NCBI GenBank assembly: GCA_019636385.1
Contig: JAHBXT010000002.1
Span: 186,001-250,000 of the forward strand
Length of the DNA stretch: 64,000 nt
Direction: 5' to 3'
Source of the DNA: Pirellulaceae bacterium
Lineage (GTDB): Bacteria; Planctomycetota; Planctomycetia; Pirellulales; Pirellulaceae
The notes beneath the pieces are model-generated. The model made no database searches and was not told the DNA's origin. It saw only the letters and a program-made list of their open reading frames with translations. Each line of letters begins with the position of its first letter. Position 1 is the first letter of the stretch. The translations under genes were made by a program, and so were the position numbers. Shown in pieces: positions 39,381 to 50,887 of the stretch.

Positions 39381-40730
39381 TTATTTGCCCTCGGCAAAGC
39401 AGTACAAGTGCTCGTGGCTGCGAATCAAAAGTCGCTGACCGCTGATCGCTGGCGTAGCATCAACAGGTTCCCCTAGTTCAACCCGATGAACTTCGTCGTA
39501 CCGCGGGCCATGCTTCAAAACCACGATCATCCCGCCACGACCAACTGCATAAACATGGCCGCCAGCGGTTACCAGCGAAGCGTACATCTGATCAACACCA
39601 GGCAGACGTTGTTGGTCAATTACAGTTTCGCCGTTGGCAACATTGACCGCCGAAAGAATGCCCGAGTTGCCTTTAACCAAGTAGACAGTATCGTCCACCA
39701 GCGTAGGGCTAGCGATATAGGGAGCTGAATCGGATCGCTTCCAGGTAACTCGATCCGAATCGGTTACGTCGCCCGCAGCGTTCAGCGCTATCGCTTGAAT
39801 CGAGAATCCGCGGTGGCCTGTCATGCAGATCGTGGTGTCCTTCCAAATCAGGGGCGTTGGAATCGGATTGGTGGTCTGTCCGCCGCACTGCCACAGAAGT
39901 TCGCCCGACTTCAAATCGTAAGAGCGAATGGTCGTACCATTGGCTATTACCTGTACGCGGCCAAATCGCTCGATAATTCTGGGTGTCGACCAACTAGTCA
40001 GTTCATTGCGATCTTGTCGCCATAAATCTTCGCCAGTTCGCGCATTGACGGCTAAAATATACGAATTTTGCTCTTGATCCCACGGAATCACCAACACGTC
40101 GCCATGAACGGCTACCGATGCGCCTTCGCCGAATTGATTACGAGTCGTCATCTGTCCCAGGTCCTTGTTCCAGATAACATTGCCATCCAAGTCTAAGCAC
40201 CACACACCTTGGCTGCCAAAATTGCACCATAGATAACGACCGTCGGTAACCACAGATGCCGACGCATAAGTGTTGGAACGATGGCCGCCTTCGTGTGGCG
40301 TCGCCCTACAAACCGTTTGGTTCCACACCGTCTTGCCATCACTTAAGTCCATGCATAAGACGTTGAAACTAAACTCTGCGGTTGGCTTGGGATTGTTCAT
40401 GCCTGCCAAGCCGCGACGCCTGCCTGCGGATTGTTCATCGGACTGGTTAGCCGATGGCGACGCATCTTGCGGTTGGTTTTCAATAGCAGTCATCAGATAG
40501 ATCCGACCATTCCACACGATGGGACTACTGTGGCCACGTCCCGGAACAGGTACTTTCCATTGCAGGTTTTGTTCGGGGCCGAATTTTAGGGGAGGATTTG
40601 CCGACGCAGGCGCGACACCATTTCCATCCGGGCCACGAAAGGTGGGCCAGTTCTCAGAGGCACCGACAGCCGCTGTCCCCATCCATGTTGTCAGCATCCC
40701 GCACCACAACGCCCAATGACCAGCTCGCAT
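39381..40730 (-). CDS. Secreted PQQ-like beta-propeller protein
   Basis: 449 residues from ATG 40730 (GAGGTG upstream), with a short signal peptide (WALWCGMLTTWMGTAAVGA). NWPTFRGPDGNGVA is the usual entry to planctomycete outer-membrane-assembly/PQQ-like propellers. Repeated blades contain W-x(2,5)-G-type strands, for example IVWNGRIYLMTAIEN, DGRYLWCNFGSQGVWCLDLD, LAVNARTGEDLWRQDRNELT, SYDLKSGELLWQCGGQT, and LSAVNVANGETVIDQQ. No Cys-Cys or metal-site residues of PQQ dehydrogenases were recognised, so it is more likely a binding or scaffold propeller than an enzyme. Probably periplasmic. No operon partners. Confidence 0.82.
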   Translation of the reverse strand: MRAGHWALWCGMLTTWMGTAAVGASENWPTFRGPDGNGVAPASANPPLKFGPEQNLQWKVPVPGRGHSSPIVWNGRIYLMTAIENQPQDASPSANQSDEQSAGRRRGLAGMNNPKPTAEFSFNVLCMDLSDGKTVWNQTVCRATPHEGGHRSNTYASASVVTDGRYLWCNFGSQGVWCLDLDGNVIWNKDLGQMTTRNQFGEGASVAVHGDVLVIPWDQEQNSYILAVNARTGEDLWRQDRNELTSWSTPRIIERFGRVQVIANGTTIRSYDLKSGELLWQCGGQTTNPIPTPLIWKDTTICMTGHRGFSIQAIALNAAGDVTDSDRVTWKRSDSAPYIASPTLVDDTVYLVKGNSGILSAVNVANGETVIDQQRLPGVDQMYASLVTAGGHVYAVGRGGMIVVLKHGPRYDEVHRVELGEPVDATPAISGQRLLIRSHEHLYCFAEGK

Positions 40731-40902
40731 ATCACACCTCAACTTTGCACAAGTCCTCGCGACGTCCTCAAGCCGTCCATCATAACGCATCGCATCGAGG
40801 CAGCAATCAGGTACAGTGGTGGCTAGGCTGGTCGAAAGCTGTGCTACGAAGGTGGCTGGGATGGCCAGAGCATCGTTGAGCTAGATATTAGTCGCAATCT
40901 AC

Positions 40903-40955
40903 CGCCTTCAGGCGACACTTGCTACGGATACCATCGCCCGGCGACTTTAGCTACC
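40903..40955 (+). repeat. REP-like repeats, two copies, one overlapping a stop codon
   Basis: Copy one (40903-40927): CGCC-TTCA-GGCG, then a stretch ending TTGCTACGG. Copy two (40934-40955): TCGC-ccg-GCGA then CTTTAGCTACC. The TAGCTA of copy two supplies the TAG stop of the prepilin-peptidase homologue (minus strand, 40953-40951), as a copy does for nagB. Confidence 0.6.
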
Positions 40956-42153
40956 AGTACTCAACCAGTCGGCGCCAAAGCAGATGATGTATCATGAACG
41001 CCAGTATCAGGCAGGCTGTCCACGGTATTCGCCGCAAGTGTTGGCGACCAAGCGGAAGCAGCAAGGCGCGCATGGCACAGGTTAACAGTGTAATTGCAAT
41101 TACCGCCTGCCAGCCCAGCCCCAGGCCAACTAGCACCAGTGCCATGGTCAACTGGCCGGTCTGGCCCGCAGTAACAGCTAACAGCACTCCCACTGCAGCT
41201 CCAATGCCGCCACCGATCAGGCTTACCGCAAGCGCCCCCTGCCATTCCGGTGGCTGCCCGCCAGATTCTGAACTATCCGATAGTGGAAAGCTGATTGGAA
41301 TCGGCGTGAGACTTGGGTCAAGCGCTGGTGGGACAATCAACAAGAGCGCCATGATACACAGCGCCAACCAGCCGGCGCGCTGGCCATCGACGTCCATCAG
41401 TATCAAAGCCAACAGGCACGACACCAGCAAACAGTGAAATCCATACAGCGCAATCAGCTGCCAGTGCGGTGCGAAGATGATCCATTCGATGCCGGTGCGC
41501 AACGGGACGTCGTAAAACGGGATGTTCGCTCCTCCGCTGGTCAACTGAAAGAGAAACAGGACGAAAAATATGCCCGCCGTAAGACCTTCAACAAGTGGAT
41601 AACGCGGTGAAATTGCCATCCGACAGTCGCGGCAACGTCCACCCAGTAGCAACCAGCCAAGCACCGGAATGTTATCGCGGGCTCTAATGTGCGACTTGCA
41701 AGACGGACACTGCGACGGCTGAAAGACCAAGGATAAGCCACGCGGCAGTCGGTAAGCTACCACGTTTAGGAAGCTCCCGATGGAAGCTCCAAATGTTAGA
41801 AACCACAAACCTGTGAGCCACTGCATGACGAGCTGTTGAGCAGCTTCTGCTAGGGGGGGGGCGATCGTGTATATGTTGAGCCCTGTTGCGGTGGGGCTCA
41901 GCCACTGCGCAGTCCACGGTGAAACGAGCCAGATGACAAACAGTAAGCCGGCCATCGCCCACACGAGAACTTTTCTTTGGGGGGCAGAGGACTGGGTAGC
42001 CGCATCGTTCCCCTGTTCGGCAGTACTACCATTTGAGGATTCGGAACATTGCTCAGAATGCGGCTGGCTTGGAAGCAGTTGCGAATCACCGTTGGCCGAG
42101 ACGCTTGCCAACGGAATGTCTGGCCGACCCGTGGGGGGGGGGAGGTCGCTCAT
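40951..42153 (-). CDS. Prepilin peptidase (A24) homologue: CxxC domain kept, peptidase aspartates apparently lost
   Basis: 400 residues from ATG 42153. A polar Ser/Gln-rich N-terminus (~70 residues) precedes several membrane helices. The methyltransferase-type domain is intact: ASIGSFLNVVAYRLPRGLSL, CPSC, ARDNIPVLGWLLLGGRC and CRDC, PRYPLVEGLTAG. In the peptidase domain the first-aspartate segment reads LILMDVDGQRAGW, where LPD or IPD is expected after DxDxxx, and the second, GxGDxK, reads AGQTGQLTMALV; I see no aspartate there, though GLGLGWQAV aligns with the conserved end. So it may methylate or bind prepilins without cleaving them. Codons 4-7 are a C10 run and a C9 run lies at 41853-41861. 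It sits 29 bases after the duplicated transporter, in one operon with the ketosynthase gene. Confidence 0.72.
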   Translation of the reverse strand: MSDLPPPTGRPDIPLASVSANGDSQLLPSQPHSEQCSESSNGSTAEQGNDAATQSSAPQRKVLVWAMAGLLFVIWLVSPWTAQWLSPTATGLNIYTIAPPLAEAAQQLVMQWLTGLWFLTFGASIGSFLNVVAYRLPRGLSLVFQPSQCPSCKSHIRARDNIPVLGWLLLGGRCRDCRMAISPRYPLVEGLTAGIFFVLFLFQLTSGGANIPFYDVPLRTGIEWIIFAPHWQLIALYGFHCLLVSCLLALILMDVDGQRAGWLALCIMALLLIVPPALDPSLTPIPISFPLSDSSESGGQPPEWQGALAVSLIGGGIGAAVGVLLAVTAGQTGQLTMALVLVGLGLGWQAVIAITLLTCAMRALLLPLGRQHLRRIPWTACLILAFMIHHLLWRRLVEYW

Positions 42154-42182: not shown

Positions 42183-43244
42183 CTAATGAGTGGGTTTCGG
42201 AAGCGGTTTGGGAGCCGTCATTAGTACGGTAACTGCACCAGCGATCACTATCGCTAAGCACGCCCAGAACAGCGGCTGAACCAGATGCCAGGTTCCCTTT
42301 TCGCTTAAAGAGATAAAGGTGTTGACGACGGGAGCAAAGCCGAACACCAGTGGCATTACATAATGCGGCTTGCCGCCGGCATTGAAGGCCAAGATGACTC
42401 CCAGCGCGCCTACAGCTCCGGCAATTCCCGCCAAGACCGACCAGCTCATGCCTAACATCGTCCAACTACCGGTATCAGCGGCGCGACCGTAGATCAACAC
42501 CATCGGAGCGATGACGGCGATGAGAAAATAGGCGATGCCCACGCAGATAAACGGGCGCAGGCGACTGCCGGACATCTTGGCTTGACCCAGATGCAGCATC
42601 GGGCCATATGATCCCCAGCAGACGGCGGCCATGATGATTGACATGATAATGCGCGGCAGATCCCGCGGATTGGACTTCTCGTTGCTACCGTCGTCAGACG
42701 TTGGACTGTCTGACTGAGTGTCAGCTGTTTCTGGAACAGGGGTCTCTTGATCGGTGGTGGTTTGCTTCGCCGCTGCACTTGCGGCCGGCGCACGAAAGGT
42801 CAGCACGCCAACAGCCCCCAAAGCAACTGCCAGAATACCCATCAGAAAGACGGGGCGAATCTGTTTGAAGGTACCGCCTAGCAGTGTGCTAACCAGCGTA
42901 TTGACGACGGGAGCAAAGCCGAACACCACGGGCATCACAAATACCGTTTCACCGCCATAGCCCAGCGCCAAAATAATCCCCAGCGCCCCCAGCGCGCCTA
43001 CCGCTCCGGCAACCAGCGAAAACAGTCCGCCGCCCACGGTCCACCTGCCGGGTTCGGCACCCATTCGGAGTATTCCGAGCGGAATGATGACGGCCACCAA
43101 AAAATATGCCAAGCCTACACCCACGAAGGCACGAAGCGAGTCATGTTGTAGTCCTTCGGACCCGTGATGTAGCGTCGGTCCATAAGCACCCCAGGCGACA
43201 AAGGTCATCGCCGTAAACAGCAATACCAGCGGCAGGCCTTTCAT
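42183..43244 (-). CDS. Duplicated multi-pass membrane transporter-like protein (DMT/GRP-like)
   Basis: 353 residues, about ten membrane helices in two similar halves of roughly 150 residues joined by a polar linker (residues ~155-200). The halves share VAWGAYGPTLHHG / VCWGSYGPMLHLG, VGLAYFLVAVIIP / VGIAYFLIAVIAP, GAVGALGALGIILA / GAVGALGVILAFN, and VMPVVFGFAPVVNT / VMPLVFGFAPVVNT. Such inverted or tandem repeats are typical of drug/metabolite transporters and the glucose/rhamnose-type porters; the substrate is not known. DNA identity between halves is very high at one point (28 identical bases). The start ATG is 3 bases after the ketosynthase stop; the prepilin-peptidase homologue begins 29 bases after its stop. 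Confidence 0.72.
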   Translation of the reverse strand: MKGLPLVLLFTAMTFVAWGAYGPTLHHGSEGLQHDSLRAFVGVGLAYFLVAVIIPLGILRMGAEPGRWTVGGGLFSLVAGAVGALGALGIILALGYGGETVFVMPVVFGFAPVVNTLVSTLLGGTFKQIRPVFLMGILAVALGAVGVLTFRAPAASAAAKQTTTDQETPVPETADTQSDSPTSDDGSNEKSNPRDLPRIIMSIIMAAVCWGSYGPMLHLGQAKMSGSRLRPFICVGIAYFLIAVIAPMVLIYGRAADTGSWTMLGMSWSVLAGIAGAVGALGVILAFNAGGKPHYVMPLVFGFAPVVNTFISLSEKGTWHLVQPLFWACLAIVIAGAVTVLMTAPKPLPKPTH

Positions 43245-43247
43245 CAG

Positions 43248-44399
43248 TTACTCGCTCAATGAGGGTTCAAGTTGCGTGGCAGGCGCTACATTGGCACCCG
43301 TCGCGCTCGTCAAGTGTTGCAATGCGTTTTGGTCTAATTGTCCAGCGACGATCGGCTGTCGCCAATGAGTCATCATCATTAGTGAATTGATCCCTGATCC
43401 AATTCCAAGTAATGCCACGTTGCTGTCAGTGTCAACAAAGCCACTGTGCAATGCCATCGCCAACGCCGTAGGCAACGCCACTGAGCCGGTATTACCCAAC
43501 CAATGGAAGGTGCTGTAGTCGCGATCGCTGGGCAGACCTAGCTGCTGAAGCATCAGGCGACGGTGTGTCGAGCCGACTTGATGGCAGACGCTGAAGTCGA
43601 TGCCATCGGGTGACCAACCAGTGCTGCATAAGTCGGCAAAGGCACGACGACCGACGTCGATACCGGCTTGCAGCAACTGTTCACTGTCGGTGTGCATCAG
43701 TGGCTGCATGCCCTGGCCAGCCTGATCGGTGTCGCTCTGGCACAGTCCATGATGTTGAGTTTCAGCCCGGATCACGCAGTCGCTCAATAAGTTGCCTGTC
43801 TGGCTGAGGTCCCGATCAACCAGCAGCATGGCACAGCTACCTGATCCAATCGTCAGGGATGCAAACGAGGGTTTGATCGACTGGCGAGTCAGCGACTGAT
43901 CTGCATTTAGCGCGGCGATCGTGGATTCAACCAACCCAGAGCCACTCTCGGTTCCGACTACGATCCCGGCGCGAATCATACCTTGCTCGATCATCGTAGC
44001 GACTTGCACCATACCACTCAGCAAACCCAGGCACGCGTTTGACAGATCGTAGACCCAGCAATTGGCTGGTAGGTCTAGCCCAGCGTGTACGCGACACGCA
44101 GTAGCGGGTTCCAAATAGTCGCGACATACGCTGGCGTGAATCAAACAGCCAATCTGCTCTGGCAGTACATCGGCGGCTTCAAGCGCCAGTCGAGCGCTAT
44201 TGATGCTCGGCCCGCTGATTGGCGTACCGTCCGGCCAGAAGCGACGCTCGGAAATGCCGCTCATCAATTCCAAGCGACCCTCAGACAGCTTCAAACGCTG
44301 ATAAGCTGGAGCCAATCTGCGCTCAATCTCCGCTGACGTGACGATTTCCGAAGGCAAGGTAAAGCCAATCGACTCCACGGCAACACGCTGGAATTTCAC
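43248..44399 (-). CDS. 3-oxoacyl-ACP synthase III-like ketosynthase (FabH/OleA-type)
   Basis: A 383-residue thiolase-fold enzyme. The catalytic triad is readable: Cys123 in YDLSNACLGLLSGMV, His273 in VCHQVGSTHRRLML, and Asn303 in HWLGNTGSVALPTALAMA. The N-terminal VAVESIGFTLPSEIVTSAEI and GISERRFW are as in FabH-like proteins. Long-chain condensing enzymes such as OleA, and planctomycete FabH-like paralogues, share this pattern; the acyl substrate is not determinable. No other fatty acid or ole gene is adjacent. It heads a probable operon with a membrane transporter-like protein (3-base gap) and the A24 homologue, a combination I do not recognise as a known pathway. The upstream region carries four repeat copies. 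Confidence 0.83.
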   Translation of the reverse strand: MKFQRVAVESIGFTLPSEIVTSAEIERRLAPAYQRLKLSEGRLELMSGISERRFWPDGTPISGPSINSARLALEAADVLPEQIGCLIHASVCRDYLEPATACRVHAGLDLPANCWVYDLSNACLGLLSGMVQVATMIEQGMIRAGIVVGTESGSGLVESTIAALNADQSLTRQSIKPSFASLTIGSGSCAMLLVDRDLSQTGNLLSDCVIRAETQHHGLCQSDTDQAGQGMQPLMHTDSEQLLQAGIDVGRRAFADLCSTGWSPDGIDFSVCHQVGSTHRRLMLQQLGLPSDRDYSTFHWLGNTGSVALPTALAMALHSGFVDTDSNVALLGIGSGINSLMMMTHWRQPIVAGQLDQNALQHLTSATGANVAPATQLEPSLSE

Positions 44400-49813: not shown

Positions 49814-50887
49814 ATGCGCACCGCACCACAGCGAAACGCCTTTACGCTGGTTGAATTGCTCGTCGTTATCGCCATCATCGGCGTCCTGGTGGGTCTGTTG
49901 CTACCAGCAGTTAACGCTGCCCGCGAAGCGTCCCGCCGCACCTCGTGTTCGAATAACATTCGGCAGATTGCAATGGCGGCGATTAACTACGAAACAACCA
50001 AGAAAAAACTGGTGCCATACCAAGATGACTTTGGGCCTTCAAGCGCACCCAAACGTGGCTCTTGGGCGGTGTCGCTCCTAGGAGGTATCGAGCAGCAGCC
50101 TATACGTGATGAATGGGACGACGGTGCGATCCAACCCGGCAATAATGACCGGCTACGTCCGAATATTCCGCTCTTTCAATGTCCGTCAGACAATGACAAC
50201 AATGATGAATCGTACGCGCGTAATAGCTATGCAATAAACGTTGGTCACTTGTGGGAACTAATGGACATTATGAATAGGCTTCCCATGTTGGACTACGTCG
50301 ATGATTCAGTTGCCAACTGGAAACATCTCAACACGGTCAATGCTACTCAGATTGATAACTCAATTTCATATAACCACGCGAAGGGATCGGAAGGATTTCA
50401 AAGTAAGGGATTGCAAAGCGGGGGAATAAAGGACGGCAACTCCAATACTCTGTGGTTTGCTGAAAACTTGCAAGCCGATAGTTGGGGATACAGCGCGAGT
50501 GATGATTCAGTTCGCTATCGTCTTGGGGTTGGCTGGGTGTATGCTTTGGGAAGCGTGCCAGATTCAGATCTTCAAGGATCAACAGTGGTAACAATTCCCA
50601 AATTGACGGAGGTTCCAGTTGCTCCATCACACGCAGATGCCGCCAAACTCAATGCTTTGCCTATCAATGGCAACAAGTTGACAATTGCCAAGGGTGAGTT
50701 GTTCGCCGCAAGGCCTTCGTCGAGCCACGCTGGTGGCGTGGTGGTAGTGGTAATGGCAGATGGCTCGGTTCGTGTACTGTCAGAGGGCTTGGAGTATCAC
50801 GTCTATCAGGCTCTGCTAACGCCGAACACTCGCAAGAGCGATGTTCCATACAACCGCTATCTGCTCAAGGCAGACGACTACGAGTAG
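49814..50887 (+). CDS. DUF1559 domain protein with type IV pilin-like N-terminus
   Basis: A 357-residue protein of the DUF1559 (SBP_bac_10) family, greatly expanded in planctomycetes. The N-terminus is pilin-like: a short basic leader (MRTAPQRNA), then FTLVELLVVIAIIGVLVGLL, with Glu at +5. The residue before the cut is Ala instead of the usual Gly. AREASRRTSCSNNIRQIAMA is the typical DUF1559 continuation, and the C-terminal FAARPSSSHAGGVVVVVMAD and DGSVRVLSEG match the family's GxHPGGxNxxxxDGSV ending. Probably processed by a prepilin peptidase and displayed on the cell surface or in pseudopili. GGGGAA lies seven bases before the ATG. It is a single gene with no partners. Confidence 0.9.
   Translation: MRTAPQRNAFTLVELLVVIAIIGVLVGLLLPAVNAAREASRRTSCSNNIRQIAMAAINYETTKKKLVPYQDDFGPSSAPKRGSWAVSLLGGIEQQPIRDEWDDGAIQPGNNDRLRPNIPLFQCPSDNDNNDESYARNSYAINVGHLWELMDIMNRLPMLDYVDDSVANWKHLNTVNATQIDNSISYNHAKGSEGFQSKGLQSGGIKDGNSNTLWFAENLQADSWGYSASDDSVRYRLGVGWVYALGSVPDSDLQGSTVVTIPKLTEVPVAPSHADAAKLNALPINGNKLTIAKGELFAARPSSSHAGGVVVVVMADGSVRVLSEGLEYHVYQALLTPNTRKSDVPYNRYLLKADDYE

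Follow-up and report, generated by a model that had tools for sequence, protein, structure and literature searches.

Prepilin peptidases consist of a methylase domain, which comprises the first two transmembrane helices, and a peptidase domain, and forms without the methylase domain exist (PMC10191384). In PilD of P. aeruginosa, an Asp pair is responsible for cutting, while a zinc-binding four-Cys domain is needed for S-adenosylmethionine (SAM)-dependent methylation but dispensable for cutting; contributions to methylation also come from a Gly and a basic residue beside the third Cys of this domain (PMC3584216). The 64-kb window, i.e., the whole stretch of DNA that was analysed here, contains a gene for a PilD-type protein, P0001, in which the methylase domain is intact and the A24 protease half is degenerate (Table 1). 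What does such a protein do? As discussed below, the prepilin peptidase/methylase of a whole Planctomycetes order appears to be divided between two genes, and P0001 would represent the methylase.

Table 1. Features of the P0001 locus and of the second PilD-type gene; positions refer to the window unless a contig is given.
Feature	Position	Strand	Remarks
PQQ beta-propeller protein	39381-40790		same direction as P0001
P0001, PilD-type: intact four-Cys methylase domain and degenerate A24 protease half	40951-42153	-	400-aa open frame
QTGQL (residues 331-335) where canonical proteins have M-G-x-G-D; second catalytic Asp absent	41149-41163	-	alignment
D254, aligned with the first of the two catalytic Asp of A24 peptidases	41392-41394	-	alignment
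A24_N_bact/methylase domain of P0001, residues 121-201	41551-41793	-	PF06750, 110.3 bits
C9 tract, codons 98-101 of P0001	41853-41861	-	just before the methylase domain
C10 tract, codons 4-7 of P0001	42133-42142	-	possible slippage site
Transporter-like protein, 353 aa, two internally similar halves	42183-43244	-	no Pfam match at E 0.01
Ketosynthase III	43248-44399		same direction as P0001
DUF1559 pilin-like protein, NAFTLVELLVV, likely client	49814-50887	+	PF07596, 111.8 bits; PF07963, 29.7 bits
P0002, PilD-type peptidase, 472 aa	C3:471725-473140		other contig than P0001

The two halves of P0001

The reading frame of P0001 starts with an ATG codon, and its methylase domain is readily recognised, the Pfam cut-off for PF06750 being 23 bits. 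As the initial annotation had stated, both CxxC pairs are intact, i.e., CPSC at residues 149-152 (C149 and C152) and CRDC at residues 174-177 (C174 and C177), and Gly172 and Arg173 adjoin the third Cys. For the Peptidase_A24 domain (PF01478), no Pfam match was found in P0001 even at an E value of 10. TadV/CpaA peptidases are short A24 proteins that have GxGD but no Cys domain; P0001, in which the Cys domain is present and GxGD is absent, is not of this type.

The loss of both catalytic Asp residues, as originally proposed, is only half borne out. The first acid site reads LILMDVDGQRAGW, and D254, the D of MD, stands in a column that is occupied by Asp in 45 of 45 canonical proteins of the phylum in the alignment. 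This site is followed by AGW where LPD is expected; judged from the alignment, the missing LPD is a neighbouring motif and not the catalytic residue. The GxGD motif and its Asp are indeed gone: the second-site column contains Asp in 12 of 12 canonical proteins versus 1 of 67 members of the P0001 family. Beyond D256, the only Asp residues are D279 and D293, which are located in a loop. With the second acid lost and only D254 left, the active site as aligned cannot be complete, and the prediction that the peptidase half of P0001 is dead is well supported, in agreement with the earlier suggestion of a homologue without protease activity. The loss cannot be attributed to chance or to a sequencing error, because it is shared by 66 of the 67 aligned relatives and because purifying selection is evident in close pairs of these genes (see below). 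The second Asp of the DxD sequence, D256 (41386-41388), is present in 60 of 67 dead proteins versus 4 of 12 canonical ones and, being retained more often in the dead proteins, it may have a distinct role.

AlphaFold2 produced confident polytopic helical models for P0001 and for P0002, a second PilD-type protein discussed below. The mean pLDDT of the P0001 model is 83.4, with values above 90 in the membrane core, over most of residues 111-280 and 311-400, and no structure in the first 57 residues; the pLDDT of the P0002 model is 89.3. Searches for PDB relatives by sequence and by fold gave no usable match, and the statement about the active site of P0001 is based on sequence alignment.

Relatives of P0001 and a second, Cys-less PilD

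In a protein search, 238 of the 248 sampled genomes of the order yielded relatives of P0001. From this search, 29 loci were fetched without regard to Cys content; in all 29, GSFLN and the two CxxC pairs have been retained, and none has GxGD in register. An alignment of 67 proteins was composed of P0001 relatives from the order and from a family of the same class, f21. All 67 rows contain the four Cys, which for most rows is so by construction, as they were selected by the four-Cys pattern; Gly172 is found in 66 and Arg or Lys at position 173 in 67. The Asp counts are independent of this selection: the first Asp is present in 16 rows, the second in 1, and GxGD in register, which the initial annotation had suggested looking for in orthologues, in none. 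The single doubtful row, L191, has kept the first Asp and contains GLGD, shifted by two residues from the register; it counts against a division of the enzyme.

The protease half is not only degenerate but, in some relatives, absent altogether. Several proteins (L021, L026, and L036) end after the methylase domain, and a gene that measures only ~100 aa from start to stop is found in some f7 genera. A stand-alone methylase domain of 101 aa (L221) matches PF06750 with 120.7 bits. These stand-alone domains of ~100 aa correspond to the unit that is equated with the methylase domain in a review (PMC10191384). In close pairs of dead genes, the overall dN/dS is 0.05-0.24 and, where dS was measurable, 0.01-0.14 in the methylase part versus 0.07-0.31 in the rest. 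Mean pairwise identity in the methylase part is 0.536 in the dead family versus 0.532 in canonical proteins, whereas in the relaxed protease part these values are 0.261 and 0.431, respectively. Thus, the P0001-type gene does not behave as a pseudogene, and the constraint on it resides in the four-Cys part.

The initial annotation raised the question of whether the genome contains another, complete A24 gene. Paralogues of P0001 were located by family search; a scan of the contigs with P0001 itself yielded 65 pattern matches, none of which was confirmed. Two other A24 genes are present, both with an intact protease. One (L001) encodes a CpaA/TadV-type protein of about 184 aa with the sequence GMGAGDVKL. 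The other encodes P0002, in which both Asp are intact (FIDFDEQSIPD and GFGDVTL) and which aligns with canonical PilD along its length, including the N-terminal domain (DxxPxxGW...RPxLIE). In an alignment of 27 members of the P0002 family, every member has both Asp, and none has Cys in the four Cys columns or the Gly that is linked to methylation. When a tree was built from the peptidase part, the CpaA-type proteins grouped in a single branch (support 98), and the P0002 rows, whose label was also carried by one row from outside the order, are found among canonical PilD proteins. Nesting with canonical PilD, apart from CpaA, P0002 is best regarded as a PilD minus the methylation residues and not as a TadV.

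Relatives of P0002 are present in 241 of the 248 genomes of the order and occur together with those of P0001 in 232; only G059 has neither. The complementary loss, the co-occurrence, the purifying selection, and the restriction to the order and some sister families can all be read from the sequences. The two genes are not neighbours, which counts against a split enzyme. Furthermore, 10 of the 248 genomes have no P0001 match, and the peptidases of these ten genomes have not regained a four-Cys domain above the cut-off, the sole exception being the P0002-type protein of G138, with a match of 24 bits. Hence, the function is dispensable or lost in these ten, or the gene is missing from draft assemblies. 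Methylation would be absent there, which also speaks against two cooperating proteins, although some of these genomes may be incomplete drafts. In P. aeruginosa, pilus assembly is reported not to depend on methylation (PMC3584216).

Neighbouring genes and poly-C tracts

P0001 was initially thought to form an operon with the ketosynthase and transporter-like genes, as an unusual partnership. Among the loci of 60 relatives, the ketosynthase gene recurs once, the gene for the PQQ protein once, and the transporter-like gene never. The operon hypothesis was therefore rejected, and the lack of conservation of the neighbours lends no support to a functional link. A different arrangement is found in family f1 (genera g2 and g3; L177-L216), where the P0001 relative is followed by genes resembling those for 6-pyruvoyl-tetrahydropterin synthase and MoaB/Mog; this lineage-specific arrangement occurs in 9-10 loci, the gene names being given by sequence appearance only.

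The C10 and C9 tracts are the only G/C homopolymers of at least 8 bases in the window, and both are located upstream of the conserved domain of P0001; the whole 5.69-Mb genome contains 15 runs of at least 9 bases. Slippage by one base at either tract would stop translation after 22-156 residues. Thus, P0001 may be phase variable through these tracts, or they may represent homopolymer assembly errors. Phase variation as a trait of the family was rejected, as the C tracts are not conserved in relatives. A G9 tract around codon 299 is found in a PilD-type gene of family f21 (L142; G396:C204:3300-6400), the frame of which ends before GxGD; here, too, phase variation or an assembly error is possible.

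A putative division of labour between two proteins

The best explanation, which we consider probable, is that PilD has been subfunctionalised and that P0001 is a zinc-dependent pilin N-methyltransferase acting in trans with a methylase-less peptidase. It is the presence of a PilD-type partner without the complementary half that would turn an isolated pseudo-enzyme into a split enzyme. Since P0001 has kept the residues for methylation and P0002 those for cutting, and since clients are present, P0002 would perform the cutting and P0001 the methylation in trans. In such a mechanism, P0002 would cut the leader from class III prepilins, about 37 of which are encoded by this genome, and P0001 would then N-methylate the new N-terminal Phe with SAM as the donor via its cytoplasmic zinc-binding four-Cys domain; its degenerate A24 helices would serve as a membrane anchor and, perhaps, as a docking surface. 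That the P0001 domain still methylates, that it acts on the products of P0002, and that the steps follow in this order is what we infer. The genome encodes 37 prepilin-like N-terminal methylation motifs above the cut-off. One of the likely clients is the DUF1559 pilin-like protein in the window, already pointed out in the initial annotation, which has such a motif besides its two Pfam matches. No recognised SAM-binding motif was identified in P0001, which counts against methylation in trans. More tentatively, it may be proposed that the order has evolved a dedicated stand-alone SAM-dependent pilin N-methyltransferase unlike the known fold classes, which acts in trans on the substrates of a methylase-less PilD, has a two-helix zinc membrane protein of ~100 residues as its minimal form, and is perhaps phase variable via poly-C in this strain.

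Alternatively, P0001 might be a non-enzymatic partner of P0002, with a zinc domain that recognises or presents prepilins or stabilises a heterodimer, methylation having been lost in the order. The authors who studied PilD suspected the zinc motif to be structural or involved in substrate recognition (PMC3584216), and the near-universal co-occurrence of P0001 and P0002 and the retention of most A24 helices in many P0001 relatives would fit a partner of this kind. However, conservation of the Gly and the basic residue that are linked to methylation equals that of the Cys, stand-alone domains without any A24 helix persist in several genera, and P0002 persists in genomes without P0001, which makes this possibility rather unlikely. 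Still less probable is the recruitment of P0001 to a membrane function unrelated to pilins, e.g., zinc or redox handling, perhaps tied to the ketosynthase and transporter-like neighbours: the genes are co-directional here and CxxC pairs are generic metal or redox motifs, but the neighbours are not conserved, the domain shows the same degree of conservation as in canonical PilD, and both a peptidase and clients are present in the genome. That P0001 still cleaves prepilins, using D254, which aligns with the first catalytic Asp, and an unrecognised second acid, is hardly credible, considering that the first Asp is kept in only 16 and the second in 1 of 67 relatives, that D256, although retained in 60 of 67, is Asp in only 4 of 12 canonical proteins, and that some relatives miss the whole protease half. 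For the decoy role that was also suggested at the outset, nothing was found in its favour.

The putative split of PilD is restricted to one order and some sister families. Families f75, f76, f78, and f79 of the same class have canonical enzymes. Elsewhere in the phylum, the ordinary two-domain enzyme accounts for most of the PilD-type proteins that were sampled, and the PF06750 loci with the highest scores among those read outside the class are also of this kind, with AMGxGDVK/HLM. In family f21, three genomes contain a canonical and a dead copy (G325, L134/L133; G345, L136/L135; G369, L139/L138), and a dead copy is also found in family f77 (L256). A single clade of dead copies is not rejected (AU p 0.57) in a tree that is based on 112 columns and is poorly resolved. 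The simplest history would be a duplication, followed by death of the protease in one copy and then, within this order, by disappearance of the zinc site from the other. A few f75 genomes have extra short PF06750-only proteins (L175, L223, and L224) beside a canonical PilD; their presence in an otherwise canonical family suggests that detachment of the methylase domain may have occurred on more than one occasion.

P0001 resembles PilD/GspO (PF06750 and PF01478) in its four-Cys cytoplasmic domain, the methylation-linked Gly and basic residue, its polytopic nature, and the A24 helix pattern, which includes the first Asp and a G-W downstream of the second site. It differs by the absence of GxGD with its Asp and of any PF01478 match, the protease being encoded by a separate, Cys-less gene. 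TadV, CpaA, and FppA, A24 proteins without a methylase domain, provide a precedent for one half on its own, i.e., a peptidase without a methylase, but P0001 is the opposite case, and P0002, in contrast to these proteins, nests with canonical PilD and has kept a Cys-less N-terminal domain. Distribution of one type IV filament component over two genes is also known from the platform proteins TadB and TadC, which have been described as resulting from gene fission (PMC10191384); that is another component, however, and each of the two keeps one copy of the same domain, whereas here two catalytic activities would be separated. In the open-access literature, outside which most subscription journals fall, no description was found of a methylase-only PilD or of a split in planctomycetes.

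In this order, proteins with PF06750 are probably misannotated when they are labelled prepilin peptidases. The purpose of pilin N-methylation has been called a mystery, with no role assigned in more than 40 years (PMC10191384), and the fusion of the methylase to an essential peptidase is part of the reason. If naturally separated, down to a domain of ~100 residues, the methylase could be deleted, purified, and structurally solved with cleavage left untouched, and the separated domain would reveal where the catalytic centre is located.
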